In this document: positions 3,328 to 40,791 of the stretch, piece by piece
Layout of the letters: every line of letters begins with the position of its first letter
Position numbering within the stretch: position 1 is the first letter of the stretch
Virus record (IMG/VR): IMGVR_UViG_3300025280_000054
Location: 1-43,566 of that record
Strand: one strand, 5' to 3'
DNA from: a virus
DNA length: 43,566 nt
Program-made: the position numbers and the translations under genes
Notes under the pieces: model-generated
The model's input: only the letters and a program-made list of their open reading frames with translations
Database searches by the model: none
What the model was told of the DNA's origin: nothing

Positions 3328-4881
3328 ATGAATATTAATACCCAGAATGTAAGTAAGGCCGAAGAAGAGTTAAAACTGGCACATGAGGATTTGATAGCAT
3401 TTGGCAAATTATTTCTTCCAGATGACTTTAGACGGAGTGAAACCCCTTTTTTTCATTATGAGGTAGCAGATGCAGTTGATGATACAAGTATTAGACAGTT
3501 GGCAGTCATTCTTCCCAGAGGGCATGGGAAAACTGTTCTTACTAAGTGCAGTATTATTCATGACTTTGTCTTTACTCAAGAGCCATTGTTTTATGGCTGG
3601 GTGGCGGCAAGTTCAAAGATTTCTGTCCCTAACCTTGATTATGTTAAGTATCATATTGAATATAATGATAAGGTAAGATACTATTTTGGAGATTTAAAAG
3701 GAAAGAAATGGACTGAAGATGATATTGAACTTACCAATGGATGCAAACTTATCTCAAAATCTAATCTTTCTGGTATAAGAGGTGGAGCAAAACTACACAA
3801 AAGGTACGATCTCATTGTACTGGATGATTTTGAAGATGAGAATAATACTATTACACCTGAAAGCCGCTCGAAGATCTCGAATCTTGTTACAGCAGTTGTC
3901 TTTCCTGCATTGGAACCAAAAACAGGAAGATTGAGGATAAATGGGACTCCAGTACATTATGATTCGTTTATCCAGAAGATTCTTGTCGGACATCAGCAAT
4001 CAGTGAAGAGGAGAGAGGAATTTAGCTGGAAAGTGATAACATATAAGGCATTGCAGGAAGATGGTACTCCTCTATGGCCTGATTGGTTCGGAATGAAGGA
4101 AATGGAGAGAAAAAAGAAGTTTTATCAGGATTCTGGCACTCCGCAGAAGTTCTATCAGGAATATATGATGGAAGTGCAGAGTGCTGAAGATGCAATATTT
4201 ACAAGGGATCATATCAAATACTGGGATGGTAAGTTCTATATAGACGAGGAGACTGGACTTTCATTCATAGATGCAAATAATGAAGGATACCAGCCATGCA
4301 ATGTGTTTGTAGGTGTTGATCCTGCAACAGATTCAGCAAGAAGAGACTCAGACTTCTCTGTCATTATTGCTGTAGCGGTAACTCCAGATAATAATATTTA
4401 TGTTATTGACTATATACGTAAGCAGTCTATACCAGTATTGGGAATACCAGGAGAACATAAGCTTGGTATAGTAGATTATATGTTCCAGTATGCCAAGAGT
4501 TACAAACCGAGTCTATTTACAGTTGAAGATACAACAATGAGCAAACCTATATTCCAGGCACTCAATTCTGAGATGAGAAGGAGAAATGATTTCTCTATTG
4601 GGTATAAAGCAGAAAAGCCAGGAAATAGGATGAGCAAAAGAGACAGGATACAGGAAATATTAGCTCAAAGATTTTCTATAGGGCAAATACATATTAAGAA
4701 GACTCAGTATGATCTGCATAGAGAGATAACAACATTTGGACCAAGAATGGCACACGATGATACCATAGACGCTCTTGCCTATGCAGTCAAGTTTGCCAAT
4801 CCTCCCATGGCTGCAGGTCAGGATAAAGAGGGTAAGTGGTATAAAAAGAAACCAAGAGCAAAAGACTGGGTAGTAGCTTAA
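3328..4881 (+). CDS. terL: terminase large subunit (TerL)
   Basis: ATP-driven genome packaging motor with a headful/cos-cutting nuclease, acting at the portal. The ATPase domain has Walker A PRGHGKT (residues 63-69), Walker B LIVLDDFED (162-170) and a coupling motif INGTP (204-208). The RNase H-like nuclease domain has VGVDPATD (Asp331), TVED (Glu400) and AHDDTIDALAYA (Asp477/478 and 481), the usual three acidic metal-binding positions. The length of 517 residues is normal for the family. The gene starts directly at the previous stop codon; the next gene follows after AAAGGAG. Annotation is secure; the exact packaging strategy cannot be read from it. Confidence 0.95.
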   Translation: MNINTQNVSKAEEELKLAHEDLIAFGKLFLPDDFRRSETPFFHYEVADAVDDTSIRQLAVILPRGHGKTVLTKCSIIHDFVFTQEPLFYGWVAASSKISVPNLDYVKYHIEYNDKVRYYFGDLKGKKWTEDDIELTNGCKLISKSNLSGIRGGAKLHKRYDLIVLDDFEDENNTITPESRSKISNLVTAVVFPALEPKTGRLRINGTPVHYDSFIQKILVGHQQSVKRREEFSWKVITYKALQEDGTPLWPDWFGMKEMERKKKFYQDSGTPQKFYQEYMMEVQSAEDAIFTRDHIKYWDGKFYIDEETGLSFIDANNEGYQPCNVFVGVDPATDSARRDSDFSVIIAVAVTPDNNIYVIDYIRKQSIPVLGIPGEHKLGIVDYMFQYAKSYKPSLFTVEDTTMSKPIFQALNSEMRRRNDFSIGYKAEKPGNRMSKRDRIQEILAQRFSIGQIHIKKTQYDLHREITTFGPRMAHDDTIDALAYAVKFANPPMAAGQDKEGKWYKKKPRAKDWVVA

Positions 4882-17948: not shown

Positions 17949-18671
17949 ATGGCAATTACAATACAAAGTTCAAGAGATAACGCAGACGATAAGACAGTAT
18001 TCTTTACTATCGCATACGGTGGTAAGGATTACAAGTGGCACGGTGATATGCCAAAGGATGCTGATGCACAGGCTTATCTTGATGCGAAATCTGATACATT
18101 AAAAGCGGAGATACTCCGTAAGCGGTATCCACAGGCAGAAGTGGAACAACTTGATGGTAAGTCTGCATTAGAATCATTTGAAGCATGGGTATCCGCTGGG
18201 TGCAAAAATGCTGAAGTTTCACAGGAGATTCCTGCGATTAAAAAGAAAGCGGCAGTATATGAAGATGTGGAAGTGGAACCAGCGATAGAAGCTAAAGATG
18301 CGGTGATGGGTGAACGTCAAGTAGAATTATCAGAAGAAGAAGAAGTTACTAAAACAGTAATTGAAAAGAGCGATAGCGGTAAGTATCTGGAAAAGCAGGT
18401 TACTGAAACAGTAGTTAGAAAAATACCACAGTACGAAGAAGTACCACTTTATGCCGCTAACGGCAAAGCAAAGAAAGATGAAGATGGCAATGCTGTGATG
18501 CACACTATACCAAAGATGGAAAGCTACGAAGTAGAGCCAGCAGTTGAAGCTAAAGAAGCGGTAACGGAGAAACGATTGGTATCTGAAGCGGTTACAGCAG
18601 TAGCAAAACAGACTTTAATTATTCAACCTGAAGTAACAATAGAAAAGAAAGCGTGGGTTGATTCACATTAA
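17949..18671 (+). CDS. acidic repetitive protein, 240 residues
   Basis: AGGAG precedes the ATG. The N-terminal 95 residues look folded (ITIQSSRDNADDKTVFFTIA, YKWHGDMPKDADAQAYLDAK). From residue 100 to the end the protein is Glu/Lys/Val-rich with an internal duplication: residues 104-119 (YEDVEVEPAIEAKDAV) recur as 193-205 (YEVEPAVEAKEAV). Between them lie NGKAKKDEDGNAV and further acidic stretches. It directly follows the fibre gene, which would suit a fibre-assembly or attachment protein, but the family is not recognised. Confidence 0.7.
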   Translation: MAITIQSSRDNADDKTVFFTIAYGGKDYKWHGDMPKDADAQAYLDAKSDTLKAEILRKRYPQAEVEQLDGKSALESFEAWVSAGCKNAEVSQEIPAIKKKAAVYEDVEVEPAIEAKDAVMGERQVELSEEEEVTKTVIEKSDSGKYLEKQVTETVVRKIPQYEEVPLYAANGKAKKDEDGNAVMHTIPKMESYEVEPAVEAKEAVTEKRLVSEAVTAVAKQTLIIQPEVTIEKKAWVDSH

Positions 18672-26151: not shown

Positions 26152-26320
26152 AGGATTAGGAGATACAGTATCCAATGTCATTAAGAAAGTTTCTGGTGGC
26201 AGGGTAAAGGAATGTGGAGGCTGTAGCAAAAGACGTGAGTGGCTGAATGATAAGGTATCATATACTAGACGTAATGCTTTAAATGCAATTGATAAGATTC
26301 AGAATGGAAATATAAGATAA
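26141..26320 (+). CDS. small CxxC protein, 59 residues
   Basis: The start chosen is ATG 26141 (MANKGLGDTVSNVIKKVSGG), inside the end of the previous gene; a longer frame from 26105 adds only a Leu/Ile/Val run that is out of frame with conserved-looking sequence. Contains KECGGCSKRREWLNDK, a Cys-x2-Cys knuckle followed by Lys/Arg/Trp, suited to binding zinc or nucleic acid. Similar small proteins are frequent in phage structural blocks. The stop shares a base with the next ATG. Confidence 0.7.
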   Translation: MANKGLGDTVSNVIKKVSGGRVKECGGCSKRREWLNDKVSYTRRNALNAIDKIQNGNIR

Positions 26321-28077
26321 TGGCTTGGAAAGCAAGACAGCCTGAAATAGATTATTCAGCTGCAGATGCTCTACGTGAAGTATCATTATTTATAGTAGAG
26401 ATGTATGGGGCGAAATTAGATAGGGAAGAGGGAGATAGAGCTCATCACCTAAATATTCTTGCAGATGAATTAAGAACTGCTAAAACTATTTTAAGAAATG
26501 AAGAGAATGCATATGACGCTGCGAAGCTAGAGCATGAATCTCGTTTTGGAAAGCTTAAAGAAGAAGATTATACAAGTCAGAGTAGACCTGTAACTGATGA
26601 TGTATATAAATGGTATGAGTCTAGGATAGAGGATAAAGAAGGTGCAATTCAACATTATAAGGGAAAAACTCAAAAAATGTTGGAAGAAATAAATTTTATT
26701 AATAGAGTACAGACTGGATTAAACACTGTAAGTACAAAACTTGGTCCAAGCCCAATTTGGTTGGACCCTGAAGATGTTACTCCAGTAGCTCTTGCTCCTC
26801 AGCTTGTAACAGGTACACCAGAAGAAATTGCAGAAAAACAAAAGCTGATAGGAGCTTTTTTTGAAGAACGGCCTGAAGTAGTATCTCCAGGAGCACTTGA
26901 AGTGATAAATCTTCTTAAAGCAGAGGCTATAGCTAAAGCAGAAGGGCGAGATTGGATTATAGATGAACGTAAATATCAAAAAGATAAACGTGAGGAGATC
27001 GAAAAGGATAAAATACTAGCAAGTGATTTAGCGTTAAATCCATTTGTATCAAGTATAAAGGCTATTGCTGGTGGGGATTATAACGATGAAAAAATGATGG
27101 ATCTGATACTTGATATAGGAACTGCACATGGTCAAAAAATAGGAGATATGTTATGTCCTGGCTGTACAACACAAAAACAGTATGATATGGTTTTAGCAAC
27201 TTATAATACTATGGCAAGCTTTGCACAAAAAGGAACTCCAAATGATATTACAGGATTAGGTAGACTTGTAGATAATTTGACAAAACAGTATGAAGAGTCA
27301 CCTGGGAAAGTTGGTGATCTCACAACAGAAAAAGGATTTTTTGCAAGCTGGGTTTATAATGTGTTTAATATTAATATGGAAACGATCGATAAAATAGAAT
27401 TAGAAGGATACAATCCTATAACTAAAGAAGTCACAAAGCATCAAATGAGTGATATGACTCCTGAAAAGTTGATAATGGTTGAGTTTGAAAATTCAGGCTT
27501 GAGCAAAAATGAATATTTTGAGAAACGAGGTAGAAAGATTTTCAAATTATTTAAACAGGTGTATGGAAAGAAAGAATCTGGAGCTGACCGAAGTGCTGGT
27601 GAATTAAAGAAGATGATAGAGGCTGCTTTTCCTAAAAAAAAAAGTGAAGATGAAGTAGCAATTCTTCGTGAGAAGTTAGTTAATATGGATTTTGAAATAG
27701 TTGATGTTACTGCAGATACTGGTTGGTATAGTGTATTAGCACAGGGAGAAGGAAGGCTTAGATTAGTAAAACCATTGGCAGATAGGGTTAAAGAAGCAAA
27801 GAATATATTGGAAGGTAAAGGAATAAATCTTCAAATTGGAGATTCACTGGTAAGAATGGATGTTAAAGAGAAGCAATATCAAGAATGGTTAGCTGCTGGA
27901 TCAAAAGGTGCCACAGTAGCACCTGCTCATAGATCATTTCATACAATAGGATTTGCTTTTGATTTAGACCGTGAAGATGGATCTATGAATAATCCAGAAA
28001 TATTTGATGTTTTAAGAGATTTAGGATTAGTGCAAAGTGATACAGAATGGTGGCACTGGTCGCTAGAAGAAGTATAA
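26320..28077 (+). CDS. virion protein with C-terminal M15-type peptidase domain
   Basis: 585 residues. Residues 1-430 are mainly long charged helices (DEEGDRAHH-type starts; HLNILADELRTAKTILRNEE) and a linker with CPGC. The last ~140 residues are a zinc D,D-peptidase of the VanY/M15 type: SFHTIGFAFDLD (His541, Asp548) and EWWHWSLEE (His579) are the three zinc ligands in the right order and spacing. Enzymes of this class cut peptide bridges of the cell wall. Fused to a coiled-coil rod and placed in the ejection block, it is probably carried in the virion to open the wall during entry rather than used for lysis. Confidence 0.82.
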   Translation: MAWKARQPEIDYSAADALREVSLFIVEMYGAKLDREEGDRAHHLNILADELRTAKTILRNEENAYDAAKLEHESRFGKLKEEDYTSQSRPVTDDVYKWYESRIEDKEGAIQHYKGKTQKMLEEINFINRVQTGLNTVSTKLGPSPIWLDPEDVTPVALAPQLVTGTPEEIAEKQKLIGAFFEERPEVVSPGALEVINLLKAEAIAKAEGRDWIIDERKYQKDKREEIEKDKILASDLALNPFVSSIKAIAGGDYNDEKMMDLILDIGTAHGQKIGDMLCPGCTTQKQYDMVLATYNTMASFAQKGTPNDITGLGRLVDNLTKQYEESPGKVGDLTTEKGFFASWVYNVFNINMETIDKIELEGYNPITKEVTKHQMSDMTPEKLIMVEFENSGLSKNEYFEKRGRKIFKLFKQVYGKKESGADRSAGELKKMIEAAFPKKKSEDEVAILREKLVNMDFEIVDVTADTGWYSVLAQGEGRLRLVKPLADRVKEAKNILEGKGINLQIGDSLVRMDVKEKQYQEWLAAGSKGATVAPAHRSFHTIGFAFDLDREDGSMNNPEIFDVLRDLGLVQSDTEWWHWSLEEV

Positions 28078-28089
28078 TAGGAGTTAAAA

Positions 28090-29196
28090 ATGGCAAATGA
28101 TAAGAAGAAAGATGAAGGAGTTCCAGATGAATGGTTTTTTGATCCTGACAGTGTATTAGCACTAGAGTCTTTATTAAAACTTGATCCTAATGCAGGTGCA
28201 ATAGACTCATTAGAAAATCTTGGGGGGGCAGGAATAGTAAGAACTCCTCCTCCAGCAAGTAATGTTGTAGGGAATCTTCCTCTTGCATATGAAAAAAGTT
28301 TGGGATTTAGGGAGAAAATTGAAGATATAGAGGTTGATCAGGGTGTAATTGATAAAATAGCTCCAGCATTATACATAGGTGCATATGAATTAGGAAAAAA
28401 AATTGTAGGAAGAGATTGGAGATGGCCTAAGGGGTGGAGCCCTAAAATAAGAGGAGCTGGTAAGCAATTGGTTGCTTATAATTTAGCTTTACAAGCTAGT
28501 GATTTGGTAGGAAGTTATGTGGATGATTGGAATAAAGCACATCCAGGTATGAAGTTAAAGCCATTACCTGGTCAAATTGCTGCTGGGGTTGGTGCAGTCG
28601 GAACATATAAATTTGCTTCAAAATTTGCCTGGACTATTATGAATAATGTTAAAACAGGCATGGCTGCTGAAGCAATGCCTGCTGTATTGCTTGAGGCTAA
28701 AAATAAATTAACTGAAAAAGTTGTAAAGCAATATGGAATTAATCAACCAGAAATAATAAAGCGAGCAGATAAAGTTGGTAGAGAAGCAACAGAGAAAGCA
28801 GCAAAAGATGTTGCAAATGTAGTTAAAGAGCGTCTTGGAAAAGATGCAACTAAGAGATGGGATGATATAACTAGACAGCTTATTAAGCCAAGAGTAGCTA
28901 CAAGGGTAGGTAAATATTTAGCAAAGTTCGCTCCTAAAATAGCAACTAGGTTAGCTGTAAGTGCAACTGCAACAGTAATTCCTGAGGGTTTTAGTACCTT
29001 TTTTGGAGTACTTGGTATAGGGTGGACTGCTTATGATATATTTAATCTTATGGAATCAATGCCTGATTCTTCTACTTTATATAACTTAATATTTGAAGAT
29101 GCTCCAGAACAAACTGCTGAAGATATGCTTATGAATGAAATGACAGTTTCAGATAGTATTTTTGTTTCTGGAGAACAGCAAAGGATGAAAGAGTAG
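28090..29196 (+). CDS. internal/ejected virion protein, 368 residues
   Basis: AGGAG precedes the ATG; stop TAG abuts the next ATG. Two parts: residues 70-185 with an Ala/Gly-rich possible membrane helix (IAAGVGAVGTYKFASKFAWT), and residues 190-300 of Lys/Ala-rich amphipathic helix (DKVGREATEKAAKDVANVVK). The last ~65 residues are hydrophobic (FSTFFGVLGIGWTAYDIFNL), ending acidic. This matches internal core proteins that become part of the DNA-translocating channel after adsorption. Not recognised beyond that. Confidence 0.68.
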   Translation: MANDKKKDEGVPDEWFFDPDSVLALESLLKLDPNAGAIDSLENLGGAGIVRTPPPASNVVGNLPLAYEKSLGFREKIEDIEVDQGVIDKIAPALYIGAYELGKKIVGRDWRWPKGWSPKIRGAGKQLVAYNLALQASDLVGSYVDDWNKAHPGMKLKPLPGQIAAGVGAVGTYKFASKFAWTIMNNVKTGMAAEAMPAVLLEAKNKLTEKVVKQYGINQPEIIKRADKVGREATEKAAKDVANVVKERLGKDATKRWDDITRQLIKPRVATRVGKYLAKFAPKIATRLAVSATATVIPEGFSTFFGVLGIGWTAYDIFNLMESMPDSSTLYNLIFEDAPEQTAEDMLMNEMTVSDSIFVSGEQQRMKE

Positions 29197-32100
29197 ATGC
29201 CCGATCCCAATGGTGGAATATCCATTGAAGAGTATCTTAAATATTTAGAGCAGCAAAACGCTAGAAATTTAAGTGCTACTTCTGATACAGGTACTGTACC
29301 TTCAGTTTTAGGAGATGTTCCTTCTGTAGATGTTGATCCTACAGCTCAAGGATGGACTGCACGTAGAAAAAGACTTGGACTTGAGGTAGTAGATGAAGTA
29401 TCAAGTGATAATGCTGCTCTTGACTTTTTGGGTTCTTTAGCTTGGGGTGGTGTTCATGGTATTACTTGGGGAACTTCTGAATTTGTAGAGAAAGCTAAAT
29501 CCTGGGATGAAATGAATGACTGGGAAAAGGCTGGTTGGGTTACTGGTGAAGGTCTTTCATTGTTTACTCCATTCGTTGGTCCATTTGCTTTGTTAGGCAA
29601 AGGTGGTCAGATTGCTACTAGAGCTTTAAGGGGTAATAATTTTATAAGAAAGGCAGCATCTAATCTAGTAAAGGAAGAAGCAATTATTGCTAAAGGGCTT
29701 TTAGATCAAGCTAAAGCTAGAGGAGTTGTTTCTCCAGCTGTATCTAGATCTCTTGAAAGACAATTCGCAAAACAACTTCCCAAAGCCCTTAAAGACAAAC
29801 ATTCAATAGCAAGATTACGAGATCTTAATGCAGATGTAACAGCTGCTCGAACTGCTAGTGTAGGATTACGATCTCAAAGTGAAGATGTGATAGGTAAAGT
29901 GCTTGAGGGTGCAGGAGTTCCTATAAATGTAGCAGCTCAGAGAAAATTGGCTAAAAGTTTTGTAGAGGAATTAGGCAAGGGCAGATATGTAAATGATATA
30001 GGTGAGTGGGTTACCAGATCATTTGGTGGAACAAATCCAGGAAGAATATCACAATATCTTGGTATGGCAGCTCAGGACTTTCTTTATCTTGGATTACATG
30101 CTCTTGGCGTAGAAAAGATAGATTCTTTAGCACATAAGAGATCTGCTGATTATGCTGATATACCTATGAGTACTACTGTTATGTCATTAGGCTTTCCGCT
30201 TATAAGAGGTATAGGAAGAGGTGGTCGTGAGTCTCTTACTCGTGGTATTACATCTTATGCCCAAAGATATAAAAAGATTAACTATAATAAGATAAGTGAG
30301 ATGCCAGGTGGTGATGCTACTGCAAGAGAATTATTAAAAAGTAATGTTAAGGGAGCTAATATAAATATAATTAATTCTTCGGAACATGGACAAAAGACTT
30401 GGACAGTTTTTGGTAAGTCTTATATGGGTAAGCAGGATATACTACATCAAGCAGATACAATGCCATTAGAACATGTAGTTGGACTTCTGAATAAGATGAG
30501 ACTCTCAGTTTCGCAAAGCCTTGTAAAAAGATGGAATAGTAATTACTGGGGAGATCTTTTAGCATCTACACCTCGTATGGGTACAGGTATTTTATTCATG
30601 AATTACGGTGCATTTCAAAGTGGTGCATTTAAGAATATGAGTCCTCAGGAATTATCTTCTCACTTATTTATGGCAGCATTTATGACTAAAGGTAAGGGTG
30701 CCTGGGATCATGCTGGTAAAAGAGGTTATCTATCAAGTGAGTATGGGGAGATGAACCGAGCATTAGAATTTCTTCAGACAGATCATAAACAAATGGATGC
30801 AACTATTTCTACCATGAAAATTAGGAATATGATTGATAAGCATGGTGTTGTTCATGGGAATAATCCAATTGCTGATGAAATTGTAAATGTATTTGATAGT
30901 GTTATTGAAGGTGAACGTATTGCCTGGAGAAATGATGGGGAATTTATTTCATCGACAAAGTATGCGAAAGTTCAGGAATTACTTAGTGCATATAATGCAA
31001 TAAAGAGGATGAAGGATAAAAGCTTTACTCATGTAACTATTGATGATATGAATACTCAAGCATTGGATATGATTAAAAGAGATCTTGGGGTAGTAAAGAT
31101 AAGGGATAAGTCAGTTGATGATATATTAAAAGATGATCTTCGAGAAGAGTTAACAGAAGAAACCAAGAAAGAGATAATTTCTGATGAGTATGGTATACTT
31201 GGGTTGCTCTCTGAAAGATTTGGGATACCTTTTAGTATTGTTCCTGTTCCTGAAGGTACACCTTTAAAAGGATCTGCAAGACTGATTAAGACACCAGAGG
31301 ATGGGAATAATTATCCTAATATACATGAATATAATAATTTGATAGTAAAATATGGCTCTTTATTGAATATTGATATAATTGATAAACCTGCACTTGCTAC
31401 TAAGCTGGCAAAAGATAGAAATATGGAAGTAAGAGATTATGATAATGCTTTGGGAGATGTGACACATGAATACATGGTTAATATGGAAGGCAGATATCTA
31501 AATCATAATTTATATTTAGAATTTGGTGATAACATATTTCTTCAAGCCCTTCATGATATTAATGCTAGCCAAGCAAAATCTGATATATATAAAGTTGTTT
31601 CTAATGTTGAAACTGATAAACAGAATGTTATTACGTTAAGAGAAGCTCTTGTTCATGTTTTTGGTCAGAAGGGTAAGTTTTCTGAGAATATATATGACAA
31701 TGAGGTTGATAAAAAGGTTGGAGAAGAGTTACTTAGTGATGCAAAAATATCTGAAAATTTGTTAATTATACAGCCAGTGTATGATTTAATGAAGAGCTTA
31801 TCAAATATAGGTAAAACCAGATCACCGAAACTTAATATAAAATCAGGTGATGTTCAGGAAGTTGCTGACAAAGTAGGAGACATGGTTAATAGACTCCCTG
31901 GTGACTGGAAACCTCCAAATCTATATATTAGAGGATTGGAGGAATTTCAATCTAGAATATTTACTGGCGGTAATAGATTATCTTATACTGCATTTCAGAG
32001 AGCTAAAGATGATGGTCTTATTCGTATGGATTTTGAGGGAGGAGTGAGAAAAATAATATTTCCTAGTGAAAATGCTATTGATAATGGACTTCCTGGAGAT

Positions 32101-35100
32101 CCAGTATCCGCAAGAGCTGTTAAGGAAGCAGTTAGAGGAGTGTATGATTTGTTTAATCCTCAGATGGTAGATAGAGCTCATCATGTTCCATTTGAAGCTG
32201 ATTTGCTTAAGTGGATTGGTATTCATCAAGAGGTTACACATAGCAAGGTTAAAGATTTTGTAGAAAATATAAATGATACACTTCGTAATCTTAGTAAAGA
32301 TAGTATGGTGGTAACACAGATAGCATCTTTGAGAAAATTATCTGATGAAATAAGAAGTGAGATGGTCAGCCCTAAGAAGGTACTTGATGCTGACAAAATA
32401 GATAAAGCTCTTGCAGAAGCAAAGCTTATACATGAGACATTAATAGCAGAAAAAAATATCAGTGTAGAGGCCAGTAAAAAATTAGATGGTCTTATTACTG
32501 CTCTTGAATTAGGTATAGCAGAAAGTAAGGATCTTCCTTCTAGAACTTTTAGTGAAGAAAATTATGGTAAAATGATTGAAACGTTTGATGAGTTGATTCA
32601 GTTTGAGATAGAAGCAGATCATGTCCAAAAGAGAGAGCTTTCCAGATTTCTTATTAAACTTGAGAATCATATTACACAAAAAGATCCAAACATATCTTAT
32701 ACTGATTCAAAAATGTTGCTTGAAAAATTAACTGCAGATTTTCATGGTCTTTTGGGTAACAGGAAATCAGCTGAAGTACCCTTGCAGGAATTGATTGATG
32801 AGTTTAACAATACTGGTAATTGGAGGGATGCACGAACTGTTATTGATGCACTTGTGAAAACTGCAGGTAGATTTAATGCACATCATGAAGCTTATAATGA
32901 TATAGCAGCTAAAATGGTAAATGAAATCCAGGGTGAAAAGCTAAATACTGAAAGACCTGTAAATTATCAGGAATTATTATTTAAATATCCATCAATACAG
33001 GATCCTAATAACCCTAATGCTGTAAGCAATAGGTTTGTGTCAGATATATCAGATGCATTTGATCCAGCAAAACCGAAAATAACTGCTCCAGATGTATTTG
33101 AAGACTATATCTATAGTGATATAAGAAAGAAGTATTCTAATTCTGGTGAGCAGGCAGTAAAAATAGAGGAGTTTAATACTGCTGAAGCATTGCCTTTGCT
33201 GCAAAATGTTTTTGGCCAGGTTCTTAGAAAAGTTTTTGTATTGGATCATGATAGATTGAATCTTGATGAAAAACCTATGCGTCATTCTCTTTCAACTATG
33301 GTTCTTGATAGGACAAATACAGTAGATCCTCAATTTAAGTATGAATATATACTTTTAAGTGGAAGTATAAAAATTGGTGATCGTACTATTAATATGGATG
33401 ATTCTTATGAGATAGGTGGTGACTGGCTTAAAATGCAGAATTATATTGACAAAGCTATAACTGTTGATATGAGTGAGATGAAAGGTCTATATGAACAGTT
33501 AAGAAATGTGGATTATGTAATAGATATTCCAAGTTTAGGAAGTCTTAAACCAGTAAGTGAGAGCAGTAAAGTATATATGCGTTTAAGTCCCAAGATGCGA
33601 ATTGTTTTTCCAAAGACAGAAGAGAATCTTGATTTACTTAATAGAGATTTTGATGATATATATACACAAAAGCTAACTGATTACACAGGACCTGAAAATA
33701 AAAAGCGTTTGCGTGCTTTTAAAAAAGCTTTTAAGAATTATTTTAATACTACTGATCAGGATAATGAAATTTTAAGATTAAAGATGATGTTCGTTCATTT
33801 TAATAGAACTATGGGTCCTCAGTTTGATGATATGATGAATAAAATGGATGTTGATAGGGGGGAGATAGAGTTTAATAGTTTTAAAAGAGGTTTGCTATCT
33901 GATGGTGGTACGACAACTCATTTGACAAGGCAGGCATTGGAATGGTCTAGAGATAATAATTCTGATCCTTCTGTAAGAACTAAGGCTCAAAAACTATTAG
34001 ATGATGGAATAAAGATTGGTGTTGTAAATGATGAGCCAGCAAATAAAGCAGATGATCATTTTTTTAGTAATAAAAAGATAGTTATAAAACAGTTGAGTGA
34101 TAGAGTTGCAAATCTTGTGACTATTGCTGGAAGGGATACACAAGAATCAAAGATAGTGGATAGTTTTGTTCAAGATATTACTGAGGGAACATATACCAGT
34201 CTTAACTCTTTCTTTTTAGATGGAGGCAAGTTTTCTAGTATTCCTTTCAGTCAATTAATACGATCAGTAAAAGGTGGTGGTGACTGGAATGGTATGAAAA
34301 CTATTATTATGGATAATGATATGCTTGGTAAAGGATTCACTGTGTATAATCCAGAGGTAGCTTCTGTATTAACTAATCTAGGTGTTGATCTTTTGGTTGG
34401 TGAGAGTGTTGCTAAGACATTAAATCTAAATAGAGCTCAAGCATTTACTATTGATCCAGCCAGAAGTCTTGAGAGAGGGTGGGAAGCTGATCTTTCTTAC
34501 ATGGATGAATCTAATTTTATGAGTATTCCATATAAGAATTTTGGTATATCATTTACTACGCACTCTGATCCTGGTGTTAACTATTCATCATCTATGTTCG
34601 ATTTTCAAAGTACACGTCATCTTCGACAAGCAAAACGACTGTATAAGATAGATGAGATTATACAAAAGATGGGTACAATTAATAATAATAAAGATTTTGC
34701 TAATGGAGATTTATTAAGAATTTTATATAAGATAAGGCAAGAAGAGACTGGTCAGCAGTTAACGACGGATAGTTATACTTTAACTGAAACACTTCTTGAA
34801 TATGGTGGAAGGGAATCCAATCCTTTGTTACAAAAAGATCTGGAAAGGTTACTTCAAAGTGATTTTTATAAGATTCTTTCAAGTAGGCCAACACGGCACG
34901 GAGAAGAGGGAATTGCCGCTGTTGATGTAGATAATACTCTTAGTAATCCTGTGTATGCTCAGTTTGAAAATCTTAGAAATAACAAAATTGCTAATAGTGT
35001 TTATCAGTATGGCGGTGGTTCTATTACTCGTGCATTGGCTAACCAATTAATCAGTAGAGATTCAAAAACAGTAGCTGATATGCGGGATATTTCTTTTATA

Positions 35101-38028
35101 GCAAGAGATAAGGATACAGGTTTAGATATAATTTTCTCTTATAGTGATAAGGGTGTTTGGGAAAAATATAGTCCATTTCTTGAAGCTCAAAAAGAAGCAA
35201 AAACTTATGCAGGTGCAGGTGTGAGGGGATTAGCAAAGGATGAATGGATTAAAGTAAGTGAAAAGTCATATAAGGAAATTGAATCTGTATTAAATCAATT
35301 GAATAAACTGACTCATTCAATGAAGAATGTTAAGTATAACGATTTGATAAGATTATTGGATATAAATGAATATCATCCACAAAATTGGAATGTGTTTTCA
35401 AAGAGTAAAATGATAAGAGAAGATATTAAAGTAGGTCTTGGAAAAACTTTTATAAAATTAGCAGATAAATATAAGATACAGTTAGGAATGTCTGTCAATG
35501 CTATTCCTAAGGTGATGAAGGATCAGCCTTTTATGCGTATTGAAAAAGTTCTTGATACAAGTCTTAATGGGTTGGCAACTATCAATACATTCGATTTGCG
35601 TGTAACTTTGCAAAGAGATCATGATGGAGATCATATATACAAATATTTAAAGATACCTATATCCATGCTTAGAGATTATGTTGATGATATGGGAGATATA
35701 CGAGATTATACTCTTATTCAAGATTCTGAGTATACCCAAGGAATAAATATGTTTGGGTTTAAGGGCGGTGTTGCTGGGAAAGATATTTCTTCTATAGGAT
35801 TTGATAAGGTAGCTCATGATATAGCTAAAAAAGATAGAATTGTATCTAGTGTAATTTCAAGGAAAGGAACCTTGAGTTATCTTTTAAATTCTGAATTAAA
35901 GTTGGATGATAACCTTTTTGTATCTGAAGTGTTTAATAATAAGAATGTAAATCTAGCAGTGTCAAAAGCATTGGATGTATTTCAAAGGGGAGGGGAAATA
36001 TTTCAGAGTTCTTTGGATAAATGGAAAAAAACCCCAAAGATCGCTAGAAATATTGAAGATATTGAGGACTATTTTATTTATGGTTTATATCCATCAGATC
36101 TTAGTAAACCAAGTGTAAAACACAGTACAGAAAGTTTTTTACAATCTGGATTTGGTATAAAGGATAAATTTGAAAGGGATATGTTCAGGATTATGCATAG
36201 AACTCTTAGTAAAGCAAGAGTTATGGATAATGATGTATATGATGCTGCAGGACGAAGACAGCCTACCACTAGTGAATTACGTAGAGCAAGAACTAATATT
36301 AACTCGTTTTTTGATAATCCAAATAGATATTTAATAATGGGTTTACTTGGAGATGCGAGGAGGATGAGGAAAAAGAAAAATTACGATGGAGCAAGCAAAC
36401 AGATTGATAATGTGATTGGTTTTTTCTATAGGAATGTTTCGGTTAGTTCATCAAGATATCCTAAGATATATTCTGATTTAGAGAAAGGATATATACCATC
36501 AGGATTAGAAAGAAGATTTACTGTAGATAAAACTCTTGGAATTAAGAGTAGTATGAGTGGACATGTTTTGGATGAAGTCATAAGAAATCCTATTTTTTAT
36601 GAGAGGGACAATAAAGGTGAATCAACTAAAAATAGAACCATGTTCCAACATTATAATAACTTGAGAAATAAGCTAGAAATTATAATGTCTTATGGAGATG
36701 TAACACCTGAAAGAATTGATGAAATGATTTTAACAGACAGTGCATTTACAGAAATAGTTAATGGACAGTCTGTATTTAAAGCTAATCTTAGTGGTATAAT
36801 AAGGTTTGTTGCTAATAGTCAGCATGCGAATTCAGTAGGAAATTTGAGGCTTTTGAAGAATGAAACTTTTAAAGATTTAAATAAAATAGAAAGAGCTGAA
36901 GATAGAATTACTGTAATCCAGAAAGTTATTGATGTGTTGGATCGCCAAATGGCTAGAGATGCTATACTTCGTAAAGCTCAAGACTTAAAACTTTTTAAGA
37001 TAAATCCTCCTAAAGATGATATAAATTGGGAATACAGAGATTTTAAGTTGAATGGTAATTTGTATAGAATTAAAGGAACAGTATCAAAAGACGATTTGGA
37101 TCCTACAACATCTATGGGGTCGCTTGAATATATAGGGTCAATAAGAGATGGACGTAAACAAAGAGTACGCAGAGGATATACTTATATTGTTGATAAGAGA
37201 CCTCCCAGGTTTGTAACTGTTGATGATCCAGAAGTAAGATGGAATAGAGCTTTTGCACAGGCAACAGGAGTTGGTACACATAGATCAAGTGATATTGATC
37301 CTTCTCGTTATCATTACGATAATGAACCTCTTGGTTTGAATAGACTTTTGTCTGCTGTAGATGCTTTAAGAAGAGGTGTAAGCGATTCTTATAGCAGAGC
37401 ACATGAAGCAGCAGATAAACAGCCAATTGATAGAAATGATATTTATTATTATAATTCTGTTATGACTGATAGATTGATAGGAAAGTTTTTTAAAGATTTT
37501 AGTACTCCAGATAATTTTGAAGGTCTTTTAAAGTATTTGATCCAGCCACAGATACAAAGGAATATGTATGTAAAAGAAGGCACTGAAGAAATGCCTTACT
37601 TTAAGATGAATACTCATCTTATTCAATCTGTATTTAATTGGATGAGAAGACCAGCAGTTGGAGGTCAACCAAGTAATGCAGAAAGGCATGGATTTGATCC
37701 AAGAACATCGATAGAAAGTATTATTAAAGATACGAATCATTGGTATGATCATACAACTGGTCAGTCAGAATTGAAAACTCAGCAGTATAATAGGATGAGG
37801 ATGGCAGGACGTGAAGATTGGAGTAGATTTAGAATGTCTACTGGTGATATTTTAATGAGTGATTGGTATGTCAATCCAGTATTGAGCAATTATGCCAGAG
37901 GTTTTATATTGGGAAGAGGAGATATTACCAGGATGAAGGATAATACTGGAAAACCAAGTTATTTTTATGATTATACAAAAAGTGGACCCCCTGATAAAAG
38001 AATGAAGAAAATAATGGGATGCCGATAA
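29197..38028 (+). CDS. giant virion protein; candidate ejected two-barrel RNA polymerase
   Basis: 2943 residues, starting directly at the previous stop; by far the largest gene. Residues ~70-330 are amphipathic/hydrophobic (LAWGGVHGITWGTSEFVE; LFTPFVGPFALLGKGGQIAT), as in proteins pushed into the cell. The middle is mixed charged helix and strand. At residues 2141-2145 is DHDGD, set in TLQRDHDGDHIYKYLKIP, a strand-motif-strand arrangement like the catalytic DxDGD of RNA polymerases with double-psi barrels (RNAi polymerases, YonO, crAss-like phage virion polymerase). Residues 1711-1740 (GKGFTVYNPEVAS... GESVAK, Lys1740) could be the lysine-bearing first barrel. The rest to 2943 is helical. Alternatives: a plain internal core protein in which DxDGD is chance. 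The next gene is likely its partner. Confidence 0.6.
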   Translation: MPDPNGGISIEEYLKYLEQQNARNLSATSDTGTVPSVLGDVPSVDVDPTAQGWTARRKRLGLEVVDEVSSDNAALDFLGSLAWGGVHGITWGTSEFVEKAKSWDEMNDWEKAGWVTGEGLSLFTPFVGPFALLGKGGQIATRALRGNNFIRKAASNLVKEEAIIAKGLLDQAKARGVVSPAVSRSLERQFAKQLPKALKDKHSIARLRDLNADVTAARTASVGLRSQSEDVIGKVLEGAGVPINVAAQRKLAKSFVEELGKGRYVNDIGEWVTRSFGGTNPGRISQYLGMAAQDFLYLGLHALGVEKIDSLAHKRSADYADIPMSTTVMSLGFPLIRGIGRGGRESLTRGITSYAQRYKKINYNKISEMPGGDATARELLKSNVKGANINIINSSEHGQKTWTVFGKSYMGKQDILHQADTMPLEHVVGLLNKMRLSVSQSLVKRWNSNYWGDLLASTPRMGTGILFMNYGAFQSGAFKNMSPQELSSHLFMAAFMTKGKGAWDHAGKRGYLSSEYGEMNRALEFLQTDHKQMDATISTMKIRNMIDKHGVVHGNNPIADEIVNVFDSVIEGERIAWRNDGEFISSTKYAKVQELLSAYNAIKRMKDKSFTHVTIDDMNTQALDMIKRDLGVVKIRDKSVDDILKDDLREELTEETKKEIISDEYGILGLLSERFGIPFSIVPVPEGTPLKGSARLIKTPEDGNNYPNIHEYNNLIVKYGSLLNIDIIDKPALATKLAKDRNMEVRDYDNALGDVTHEYMVNMEGRYLNHNLYLEFGDNIFLQALHDINASQAKSDIYKVVSNVETDKQNVITLREALVHVFGQKGKFSENIYDNEVDKKVGEELLSDAKISENLLIIQPVYDLMKSLSNIGKTRSPKLNIKSGDVQEVADKVGDMVNRLPGDWKPPNLYIRGLEEFQSRIFTGGNRLSYTAFQRAKDDGLIRMDFEGGVRKIIFPSENAIDNGLPGDPVSARAVKEAVRGVYDLFNPQMVDRAHHVPFEADLLKWIGIHQEVTHSKVKDFVENINDTLRNLSKDSMVVTQIASLRKLSDEIRSEMVSPKKVLDADKIDKALAEAKLIHETLIAEKNISVEASKKLDGLITALELGIAESKDLPSRTFSEENYGKMIETFDELIQFEIEADHVQKRELSRFLIKLENHITQKDPNISYTDSKMLLEKLTADFHGLLGNRKSAEVPLQELIDEFNNTGNWRDARTVIDALVKTAGRFNAHHEAYNDIAAKMVNEIQGEKLNTERPVNYQELLFKYPSIQDPNNPNAVSNRFVSDISDAFDPAKPKITAPDVFEDYIYSDIRKKYSNSGEQAVKIEEFNTAEALPLLQNVFGQVLRKVFVLDHDRLNLDEKPMRHSLSTMVLDRTNTVDPQFKYEYILLSGSIKIGDRTINMDDSYEIGGDWLKMQNYIDKAITVDMSEMKGLYEQLRNVDYVIDIPSLGSLKPVSESSKVYMRLSPKMRIVFPKTEENLDLLNRDFDDIYTQKLTDYTGPENKKRLRAFKKAFKNYFNTTDQDNEILRLKMMFVHFNRTMGPQFDDMMNKMDVDRGEIEFNSFKRGLLSDGGTTTHLTRQALEWSRDNNSDPSVRTKAQKLLDDGIKIGVVNDEPANKADDHFFSNKKIVIKQLSDRVANLVTIAGRDTQESKIVDSFVQDITEGTYTSLNSFFLDGGKFSSIPFSQLIRSVKGGGDWNGMKTIIMDNDMLGKGFTVYNPEVASVLTNLGVDLLVGESVAKTLNLNRAQAFTIDPARSLERGWEADLSYMDESNFMSIPYKNFGISFTTHSDPGVNYSSSMFDFQSTRHLRQAKRLYKIDEIIQKMGTINNNKDFANGDLLRILYKIRQEETGQQLTTDSYTLTETLLEYGGRESNPLLQKDLERLLQSDFYKILSSRPTRHGEEGIAAVDVDNTLSNPVYAQFENLRNNKIANSVYQYGGGSITRALANQLISRDSKTVADMRDISFIARDKDTGLDIIFSYSDKGVWEKYSPFLEAQKEAKTYAGAGVRGLAKDEWIKVSEKSYKEIESVLNQLNKLTHSMKNVKYNDLIRLLDINEYHPQNWNVFSKSKMIREDIKVGLGKTFIKLADKYKIQLGMSVNAIPKVMKDQPFMRIEKVLDTSLNGLATINTFDLRVTLQRDHDGDHIYKYLKIPISMLRDYVDDMGDIRDYTLIQDSEYTQGINMFGFKGGVAGKDISSIGFDKVAHDIAKKDRIVSSVISRKGTLSYLLNSELKLDDNLFVSEVFNNKNVNLAVSKALDVFQRGGEIFQSSLDKWKKTPKIARNIEDIEDYFIYGLYPSDLSKPSVKHSTESFLQSGFGIKDKFERDMFRIMHRTLSKARVMDNDVYDAAGRRQPTTSELRRARTNINSFFDNPNRYLIMGLLGDARRMRKKKNYDGASKQIDNVIGFFYRNVSVSSSRYPKIYSDLEKGYIPSGLERRFTVDKTLGIKSSMSGHVLDEVIRNPIFYERDNKGESTKNRTMFQHYNNLRNKLEIIMSYGDVTPERIDEMILTDSAFTEIVNGQSVFKANLSGIIRFVANSQHANSVGNLRLLKNETFKDLNKIERAEDRITVIQKVIDVLDRQMARDAILRKAQDLKLFKINPPKDDINWEYRDFKLNGNLYRIKGTVSKDDLDPTTSMGSLEYIGSIRDGRKQRVRRGYTYIVDKRPPRFVTVDDPEVRWNRAFAQATGVGTHRSSDIDPSRYHYDNEPLGLNRLLSAVDALRRGVSDSYSRAHEAADKQPIDRNDIYYYNSVMTDRLIGKFFKDFSTPDNFEGLLKYLIQPQIQRNMYVKEGTEEMPYFKMNTHLIQSVFNWMRRPAVGGQPSNAERHGFDPRTSIESIIKDTNHWYDHTTGQSELKTQQYNRMRMAGREDWSRFRMSTGDILMSDWYVNPVLSNYARGFILGRGDITRMKDNTGKPSYFYDYTKSGPPDKRMKKIMGCR

Positions 38029-38150
38029 TGAAAATTAACGAAAAAGTTATCTCATGTATATCAAATTTTCAGATTGATTTTAAAAAGGTGCCCTGCCCTA
38101 CACATCAAATTTTGAAACTTTTTAGGAGTAGTAATGTCAGCAGGTTGTAA
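38028..38150 (+). CDS. possible small protein, 40 residues
   Basis: Starts in a TAATG overlap with the giant gene and ends 17 bases inside the next gene. Product: MKINEKVISCISNFQIDFKK then VPCPTHQILKLFRSS, a soluble-looking short peptide. The ribosome site is poor. The coupled start speaks for it; the short length against it. Confidence 0.33.
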   Translation: MKINEKVISCISNFQIDFKKVPCPTHQILKLFRSSNVSRL

Positions 38151-40791
38151 TGAAGTTCAGTCAGCAGGAGTAGATATTGATTATAATGCTGAAAGAATGA
38201 ATGAGATATTCAAATATTGGGTTGATAAGCCTAATATCAGGAAAAGATATACGAGACCTGATGGAACATTTGAAAAAGAGATAGCTGAAAAAGGTTTAGA
38301 AAGCTATGTTTGGGATATACTTGATTATCCGTTTAAAGTAGAGCAGAATTTTACAGATAGACAGTTAAAAAGGATAAAAATAGCTATTGATGGACATGAT
38401 AAAGATTTGACAGGAAAGTTTAAGAATATAGCTGGAATTTTTGCTGTACCCAGGGGATTGGCAAGATTGGATCCATCATCTAATAAAATGTTAATGGACC
38501 TGGAAAGTGCTAAAAACTATGAACGTAATAAGATGAGTCAGGTGGAATTTTCCATTCAGGAGATCAAAGATAAAATATTATCTGCTCATATTGATGTAAA
38601 TAAGGGAGGTAGGTTTTTTGGTAATAAGAGTTATAAGGAATATAGAAAGATAAGAGATAAGATTGTAAAAGCAAAAGATGAGCATGTAGAACAGGCTGTA
38701 CATGATGCTGTTAAAGGATTTTATTTAACAGATAATGGAAAACTTCTTGGGGAATATCATACTCTAGTCAAGTTAGCAAGTAAAAATCCTGAAAACGGTA
38801 GATCTAAGAATTCTGAACTTGATATTGCAATTCGTAATGGATACTTACATACAGATCCTGTTACAGATGTACAAAAAATGGTTAAGTATAATCCTAAAAT
38901 AATACAGGCAGTAGAGATGTCTCATAATTTGCTGGATACTGTTGGTAGAGTTCATATTGCTTCTTTCCGAGAAATGGCTAATGTTATTGATTTTAAGTTT
39001 TCCAGGTTTAATCCTGCAAGCAAGAATCTCATGGATAAATTAGAAGCTGCAGCTGTACGTATAGAGGGTAGGATGGAGAAAGGAGATTATTTCCCGAAGA
39101 TTATATTGGAAACTATGTATGATATGAAAGTAAAGCTTGAGGATATGATAACAGAGTCCAATATAAGTACTGCAAATGAATATATGAATGAAATGATGGG
39201 CATTACAGACGGATTGTTAGGTCAATTAAATCAAGCTCCTAAAAATACAAAAGCAGCAAGTAGAAATTTGAATCTTTTATGGGAATCTGATCCATATGTA
39301 ATCCTGGAAAAATATTCAAGGGATGCTATTCAGTTTAATAAGAATATTCATATACAGAGGGCATATCTTGAAGCAATGAGAACTATTCCTAATGCAGATA
39401 CTGCATTTTTAAAAGGAATGAAAAGTTTTATAATGGAAGAATATCTTGTAGCTAATACTGAAGGCAGAAGTCGTCCTAAATGGGTAAATGATTGGACACG
39501 TACCATAAATAGTTTTCAGACAGGAAGAACTATGGGATTAAATATAACTGGTGGAATAAAAAATGCTGCCAGTGTGCTTCATTATTCATCCAGAGTAGGT
39601 CTCAAAGCTATTAGAAATGCAAAAAAATCATATCAAAATTTGAAAATGAAAGAGATTGTTGATAGGGTAGAAAAAGAAGAAGGTTTTCTATTTACTCCAA
39701 GTGATAGTGCTATTATGATGGAGGGTATTGTAGGCAGGGATAAATATAGTAAGAATGAGCTTGTATTTAATGAACAAAAAGGTCAGTATTTTTATAAAGG
39801 TACTATGGTAAAAGATCTTGTTGAAAAGATGGGAGATAAAACACTTGGATTTTTATTATCATTTCATAGATGGACTGAAAATGGACAAAGGAAATTTATG
39901 TTCAGGACTTCATTTATTAATAAATTTCAGGAATTATCTGCTACCAATAAGTTATCTGAAAAAGACAATGAAAAATTTGCTAAGAATTATGCCTTAAAAA
40001 TGGTAAATGGATGGGCATATGAATATGCTCCATTTGCTAAAAATAAGTGGGTGCGAGGCAGTCAGAATATTAAGATAGTGGATGAAGTTGGAGAGTCTTA
40101 CATAATTAGAAAAGGTCCCAAAGCTGCTGGAGCAGGTCTTAGTGAGGTAGCATTCCATTTAATGCATTATCCTATGAGCCTTCTAGAAACGCATGTAAGC
40201 CAGTTAAAGGCAGCAGGACAGTCAGCTAAGGCTGGTAACTGGGATTCACCCGAAATGCAGTATATGATGCGATATGCGGGTGTATTTGGGCTAATACAGC
40301 TAGGATCTATTTTACTTAATGCTAATCTTAATAATATATTAGAAAATGAGACTCTTAATAGATTAGGTAGAATTGAAAGAGATCTGCTTGAATATGGAAA
40401 TGAAGACAGAGCTACATTTGGATTACTATCTGAATTTACAGGTCCTACTGTAGGTCATTTAAAATATTTCAGTATAATGGGTGGTCTTGTGAAGCTTGAT
40501 TCTCCTGCTAAAAAGATTCTTCTTGGCAATGTAGATTATACAGAAGATACTGAGGATAGCAGAAGATATACTGATTATCAATACAGTACAGAATATGGAA
40601 GAATAAAACACAAAATATATCCTGCAATACGTGACGGACGGAGCATAGACTTAGCTAGGCATTACCTTGCTTGGTATCCAACTACTTGGATCAAGAAGGC
40701 TAGAGAACGCTTAGGATTGAAAAAACCAAGTAAGTCTAAATTTACTACAGAAGAAATATTATACTCCATTCGTCCTAGTGCTTTTCGTTAA
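38134..40791 (+). CDS. large internal virion protein, 885 residues
   Basis: GGAGTAGTAATG gives a good start. Almost entirely helical: charged coiled coils (residues 120-200, 290-340), a glycine-containing turn (TGRTMGLNITGGIKNAASVL) that recurs in phage ejection proteins, and a more hydrophobic stretch at about 705-735 (MMRYAGVFGLIQLGSILLNA). The C-terminus is basic. It is the last gene of the late operon and follows the giant gene with about 100 bases between, so the two are probably packaged and ejected together. No enzymatic motif was seen. It may be a chaperone or channel partner of the giant protein. Confidence 0.75.
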   Translation: MSAGCNEVQSAGVDIDYNAERMNEIFKYWVDKPNIRKRYTRPDGTFEKEIAEKGLESYVWDILDYPFKVEQNFTDRQLKRIKIAIDGHDKDLTGKFKNIAGIFAVPRGLARLDPSSNKMLMDLESAKNYERNKMSQVEFSIQEIKDKILSAHIDVNKGGRFFGNKSYKEYRKIRDKIVKAKDEHVEQAVHDAVKGFYLTDNGKLLGEYHTLVKLASKNPENGRSKNSELDIAIRNGYLHTDPVTDVQKMVKYNPKIIQAVEMSHNLLDTVGRVHIASFREMANVIDFKFSRFNPASKNLMDKLEAAAVRIEGRMEKGDYFPKIILETMYDMKVKLEDMITESNISTANEYMNEMMGITDGLLGQLNQAPKNTKAASRNLNLLWESDPYVILEKYSRDAIQFNKNIHIQRAYLEAMRTIPNADTAFLKGMKSFIMEEYLVANTEGRSRPKWVNDWTRTINSFQTGRTMGLNITGGIKNAASVLHYSSRVGLKAIRNAKKSYQNLKMKEIVDRVEKEEGFLFTPSDSAIMMEGIVGRDKYSKNELVFNEQKGQYFYKGTMVKDLVEKMGDKTLGFLLSFHRWTENGQRKFMFRTSFINKFQELSATNKLSEKDNEKFAKNYALKMVNGWAYEYAPFAKNKWVRGSQNIKIVDEVGESYIIRKGPKAAGAGLSEVAFHLMHYPMSLLETHVSQLKAAGQSAKAGNWDSPEMQYMMRYAGVFGLIQLGSILLNANLNNILENETLNRLGRIERDLLEYGNEDRATFGLLSEFTGPTVGHLKYFSIMGGLVKLDSPAKKILLGNVDYTEDTEDSRRYTDYQYSTEYGRIKHKIYPAIRDGRSIDLARHYLAWYPTTWIKKARERLGLKKPSKSKFTTEEILYSIRPSAFR

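Follow-up and report, generated by a model that had tools for sequence, protein, structure and literature searches.

A predicted two-barrel virion RNA polymerase in uncultured marine phages and a conserved cysteine pair at its gene junction

The window analysed here is the whole of IMG/VR record IMGVR_UViG_3300025280_000054, 43,566 nucleotides of viral DNA, in which an open reading frame (ORF) for a giant protein of 2943 amino acids occupies positions 29197..38028 on the plus strand, the strand of all window features given below. We consider it highly probable that this protein is a single-chain two-barrel (cellular-type) DNA-dependent RNA polymerase (RNAP) that is packaged in the virion, co-ejected with the genome for the transcription of early genes and works like gp66, the virion RNAP of the crAss-like phage phi14:2 (PDB 6VR4, annotated as gp077 in KC821624); catalysis, packaging and ejection are all predicted. 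With moderate confidence we also propose that a disulfide chain links the RNAP to the next cargo protein. The initial annotation had singled out the ORF by the motif DHDGD at residues 2141-2145, and the sequence bears this out: the motif, here taken as the predicted catalytic one, is encoded by GAT CAT GAT GGA GAT at 35617..35631 and is the single DxDGD in the protein.

Relatives were sought with the terminase large subunit of the window (phrog_38, 3328..4881), a bait that is independent of the motif and has at least 598 relatives in IMG/VR. Fifteen contigs of more than 20 kb reached in this way were read in large part, their selection having been made without the motif. Thirteen of them carry a giant ORF of 2776-3159 amino acids (1890 in one broken assembly), always in the same position, after the tail genes and before a gene for 871-1050 amino acids. 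While the terminases of these relatives are 77-81% identical to that of the window (87% in one genome with a truncated terminase), their giant proteins are merely 13-27% identical to the window protein, and the 14 proteins aligned together proved too varied to scan with, so that the pattern scans used sub-clade alignments. Nevertheless, D2141, D2143 and D2145 are invariant in 14/14 proteins (the window and its 13 relatives), as the initial annotation had expected of homologues. The glycine position varies (M, L, F, V or T in its place), giving DNDGD, DYDMD, DFDLD, DFDFD, DYDVD and DFDTD. The 14 also share P2104, D2109, D2133 and D2274 without exception, together with three lysines, K1701, K1712 and K1740, that sit about 400 residues upstream of DxDxD. 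In a larger homologue set DxDxD is kept in 88/88, but this set was partly collected with motif patterns and the claim of invariance therefore rests on the 14. An alignment of 66 sequences, likewise collected in part with motif patterns, left K1701, K1712, K1740, P2104, N2130, D2133, the three Asp and D2274 all unchanged.

The conserved positions delimit two regions of the window. A Lys-bearing barrel region, DPBB-B-like (DPBB, double-psi beta-barrel), spans 34222..34431 and includes the codons of K1701 (34297-34299), K1712 (34330-34332) and K1740 (34414-34416). The DxDxD barrel region, DPBB-A-like, spans 35473..35661 with P2104, D2133 and the three Asp, and D2274 (36016..36018) follows 3' of this catalytic barrel. 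The Lys barrel lies upstream of the DxDxD barrel, which is the order expected of single-chain two-barrel RNAPs. Composition alone predicts 0.10 DxDGD matches in a protein of this kind, and the earlier estimate of one protein in ten was thus right for a single sequence; conservation, as read from the alignments, lifts the motif above chance. That DHDGD arose by chance in some structural protein unrelated to RNAPs, as this expectation and the lack of a direct family match would allow, is hardly credible to us; it is refuted by the invariance of the Asp residues in distant homologues and by the structure search described below, and the matching partner lysines speak against it as well. Very improbable, too, is a two-barrel enzyme of another kind than an RNAP, such as a relic that has lost its activity and now plays a structural part. 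The remainder of the protein does diverge very fast, but the Asp residues of DxDxD and the lysines are its most conserved residues, and a relic would not keep them.

The core, residues 1351-2500 (33247..36696), was modelled with AlphaFold2 from 66 sequences (predicted local distance difference test score, pLDDT, 84.9; predicted template modelling score, pTM, 0.85), and strands flank the motif on both sides in the model. When the model was compared by Foldseek with 350,542 PDB chains, the crAss-like virion RNAP 6VR4 ranked first (E 4.3e-7, probability 1.00), followed by plant RDR2, the P32/P74 phage RNAPs and multisubunit RNAPs; the top PDB matches listed are all two-barrel RNAPs. Among predicted viral structures (BFVD) the best matches were unnamed proteins (E to 1.7e-28), a protein of Virus NIOZ-UU157 and proteins of crAss-like phages. 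Thus the structure prediction called for by the initial annotation gave a core model that resembles two-barrel RNAPs and 6VR4 best of all, the two barrels being identified from conserved residues and the fold search of a predicted model.

Profile comparison pointed the same way. Alignment of the family with the crAss RNAP alignment by hhalign gave two collinear local matches, one in the Lys region and one in the DxDxD region. With the core only they scored 43.5 and 28.4, whereas none of 120 column shuffles exceeded 21.0 and the reversed profile reached 20.2. The matches are above every shuffle but of low hhalign probability, and there was no pairwise sequence match. K1740 aligns opposite gp66 K1065, and the crAss RNAP family has invariant lysines in the same order (gp66 K1012, K1027 and K1065); any choice of the catalytic residues among K1701, K1712 and K1740 is presumptive. 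On the strength of the fold search and the collinear profile matches we accept membership in the two-barrel RNAP superfamily, and the polymerase reading of the initial annotation is supported by Asp conservation and predicted structure together. In the active site as we picture it, the DxDxD loop would bind the catalytic Mg2+ and the partner-barrel lysines would complete the site. Two observations weigh against this assignment. Despite a clear E-value and ranking, TM-scores to solved structures are low (0.29 to 6VR4, where a long alignment has a root-mean-square deviation of 18.7); the probable cause is that one alignment is made to stretch across a large chain of several domains. Moreover, no useful match to any RNAP profile came from scanning single sequences against Pfam and PHROGs or from searching the sequences of the PDB; the negative result with PHROGs says little because PHROGs also misses phi14:2 gp66 itself. 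A search for the T7-type polymerase profile PF00940 found nothing in 15 records and was uninformative, since control genomes gave no match either.

The N-terminal part, residues 1-1350 (29197..33246), is mostly helical in the model; residues 1-1200 reached a pTM of 0.54 without a significant PDB match. Residues ~67-144 align with a score of 32.9 (maximum of 24 shuffles, 20.6) to crAss cargo protein A (phi14:2 gp078), within its N-terminal region, and we read the ORF as a fusion of an "A" part, at the N-terminus, with the RNAP ("B"). The hydrophobic N-terminus noted in the initial annotation is partly right: this end is rich in conserved glycines, but the protein lacks a classical membrane helix, since its Kyte-Doolittle value stays at or below 1.38 in every 19-residue stretch. 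S457, R460 and G464 (residues 453-471, window 30553-30609) are invariant in 59 aligned N-terminal halves.

Delivery with the DNA is suggested by gene order and size, by the cysteine pattern and by the parallel with crAss phages. An RNAP-fold enzyme made in the cell for middle or late genes and not ejected would have a precedent, as P23-45 and similar phages possess one two-barrel RNAP in the virion and another that is not a virion protein (PMC10770324). We regard this as unlikely here, given that in all relatives the gene lies after the tail genes and between ejection-type cargo genes, that the body of the protein is free of cysteine as in the ejected N4 virion RNAP (vRNAP), and that the closest solved relative, 6VR4, is a virion enzyme.

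The cysteine pattern concerns the end of the giant protein and the beginning of the next. In the window the sole cysteine of the giant protein is Cys2942 (TGC, 38020..38022), and the following cargo protein of 885 amino acids (38134..40791) has exactly one cysteine, Cys5 (TGT, 38146..38148), close to its N-terminus. The same arrangement was found throughout the family at loci gathered by scans in which no pattern contained Cys. All 86 giant ORFs (86/86, including near-duplicates and some N-terminally partial ones) have a Cys-free body and exactly one Cys in the last 8 residues, whereas other ORFs have 5.7 Cys per 1000 residues, a rate that predicts about 17 per protein. At all loci where the start of the downstream gene is known (82/82; 60,452 residues), this gene encodes a single Cys, which falls at residue 3-8; the count refers to the sequence covered of each gene, and one start was called a few codons early. 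Across the 14 genomes, Cys stands on both sides of the junction between giant and next gene in 14/14 cases and in 0/215 other neighbouring pairs. Both TGT and TGC encode the terminal Cys. Thioester ligation as a role of the N-terminal Cys was rejected because the residue is at position 3-8 and not first.

In crAss phages the same pattern follows the state of gene fusion among the three large cargo proteins. In phi14:2 these are separate: the single Cys of cargo A (gp078) is its last residue, the RNAP (gp077) has two, at residues 3 and 2179 of 2180, and cargo C (gp076) has a single one at residue 3. Split junctions that could be seen from both sides bear the Cys pair in 14/14. Fused proteins are without a terminal pair at the fusion, and the free outer ends examined carry no Cys. 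Where A and B are fused (Besingivirus, Culoivirus, Canhaevirus, Aurodevirus with TAG read as Gln, and Fipvunavirus), the fused protein has no N-terminal Cys and keeps the C-terminal one, and C has a Cys near its start where sequence is available. Where B and C are fused (Carjivirus, Delmidovirus and Hacihdavirus), A ends in Cys while BC begins MSC and has no C-terminal Cys; in Carjivirus this MSC lies 21 codons inside the annotated start. The marine giant protein, as judged from its alignment to crAss A, its missing N-terminal Cys and its one C-terminal Cys, fits the A-B fused form. We also considered a translational frameshift or an artefact of fusion, which is unlikely because the A gene of Kehishuvirus, the upstream partner there, is encoded on the opposite strand and still has its single Cys three residues from the end.

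While the Cys pattern and its dependence on gene fusion are observed, the disulfide and its release by reduction are proposed from sequence. Cys2942 and Cys5 would form one disulfide in the mature particle, the joined proteins would go through the narrow tail one behind the other as a single thread, and the reducing host cytoplasm would cut the bond and free the polymerase. Put more generally, and held with the same moderate confidence, tailed phages may tie large ejected proteins, including the virion RNAP, head to tail through single terminal cysteines into a redox-cleavable chain, whose members would be drawn through the tail one after another and come apart in the reducing cytoplasm. Gene fusion would then be interchangeable with disulfide coupling as a means of building it. 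Such a chain, if the tied-cargo reading holds as we are inclined to think, would comprise ~3,800 residues here and ~5,400 in phi14:2. A crassvirus virion has tail disulfides, and partly unfolded passage has been suggested for its cargo proteins (PMC10172136). Three points tell against the disulfide: it needs oxidation inside the capsid after lysis, some crAss cargo proteins have internal cysteines as well, and the comparison of the 885-amino-acid protein with crAss cargo C by hhalign (21.9, with a shuffle maximum of 21.7) did not show homology. The terminal cysteines could instead serve a homodimer, a metal site or a tether to portal or tail and not be paired together, with the Cys-free bodies reflecting avoidance of wrong disulfides in the periplasm, as proposed for N4-like vRNAPs; these are Cys-free and need no partner, and the absence of Cys in them has already been linked to ejection (PMC3715699, PMC3915230). 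We give this explanation a lesser though real chance, since avoidance leaves unexplained why one invariant Cys ends one protein and another starts the next, why both are gone where the proteins are fused and why the outer ends examined carry none. Only the Cys absence in N4-like vRNAPs was found to be published already; no report of the terminal pair appeared in the open literature searched, which did not include the original gp66 paper, so the pair appears new with priority uncertain. Carjivirus has two annotated thioredoxin genes close to the cargo genes (27314-27592 and 28312-28581), which are of interest if the cargo chain is disulfide-bonded.

Upstream of the giant gene the window encodes two further cargo or ejection-type proteins, one of 368 amino acids (28090..29196) without cysteine and one of 585 amino acids (26320..28077). 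The latter has an M15-peptidase-like (M15/VanY-like) C-terminus by eye, without a Pfam match, and one CPGC motif (Cys 279 and 282). In the relatives the cargo proteins at -1 and -2 are Cys-free except for one partial ORF. Window positions 18670-43566 (24.9 kb, giant gene included) are 99.98% identical to contig IMGVR_UViG_3300025296_000029, while the terminases of the two share just 57% identity and window bases 1-104 are found again at 37349-37452 of that contig; the break at 18670 reflects either recent recombination or an assembly chimera.

With the window giant protein as query the sole match in IMG/VR was a near-identical contig, and there was none in annotated phages; tblastn with four family members against 50,697 phage records gave no match. 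Contigs of bacterial and archaeal genomes yielded one match, a 25% identical relative on a 15.7-kb metagenome-assembled genome contig of 'bacterium isolate ARS1360', which is probably viral DNA that was binned with a bacterial genome. The relatives are mostly ~50-60 kb, and a larger contig with the giant gene is IMGVR_UViG_3300030107_004423 (82,923 bases).

These findings offer a candidate function for a giant protein without sequence annotation in a numerous group of uncultured marine phages and would add a deeply diverged family of presumably virion-packaged cellular-type RNAPs outside the Crassvirales. The terminal Cys pattern suggests how several giant proteins could exit through a narrow tail in sequence and come apart in the cell, and this idea of a Cys chain can be tested directly in crAss-like phages already in culture.

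Among known systems, the eukaryotic RNA-interference polymerases QDE-1 and RDR2 share the single-chain two-barrel architecture, and RDR2 was second in the PDB search, but they are cellular, mainly RNA-templated and unrelated to virions. The N4-like vRNAPs (Schitoviridae) resemble the marine protein as ejected RNAPs of ~3000-3500 amino acids with a Cys-free body, which we confirmed for N4; they are, however, T7-type polymerases and not two-barrel enzymes, and the N4 vRNAP has no terminal Cys. Tailed phages of the mReC Caudovirales and jumbo phages likewise encode a two-barrel catalytic core in their beta/beta-prime-type RNAP subunits (PMC7481178, PMC7598289), yet these are separate subunit genes recognisable by sequence, whereas in the window both barrels lie in one ORF without a Pfam RNAP match. 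P23-45 gp96 and gp64-type RNAPs (8f72, 8f5m) place a two-barrel RNAP in a giant virion protein with proposed threading through the tail; gp96 differs in being fused to a siphovirus tape measure protein, and the structural similarity of gp64-type RNAPs to the marine core is weaker than that of 6VR4. The crAss-like phages differ in having genomes of ~100 kb, and there is no tblastn-detectable similarity between gp66 and the marine giant protein, which apparently has the A part fused to its RNAP. By their portal and capsid PHROGs the marine phages are not Crassvirales: the window has portal phrog_156 and major capsid protein phrog_1328, phi14:2 portal phrog_6547 and major capsid protein phrog_11589. 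What gp66 and the other Crassvirales RNAPs have in common with the marine family is the single-chain two-barrel form with DxDxD and three conserved upstream lysines in the same order, and gp66 also shares a gene that adjoins other large cargo genes and a terminal Cys at the gene junctions.

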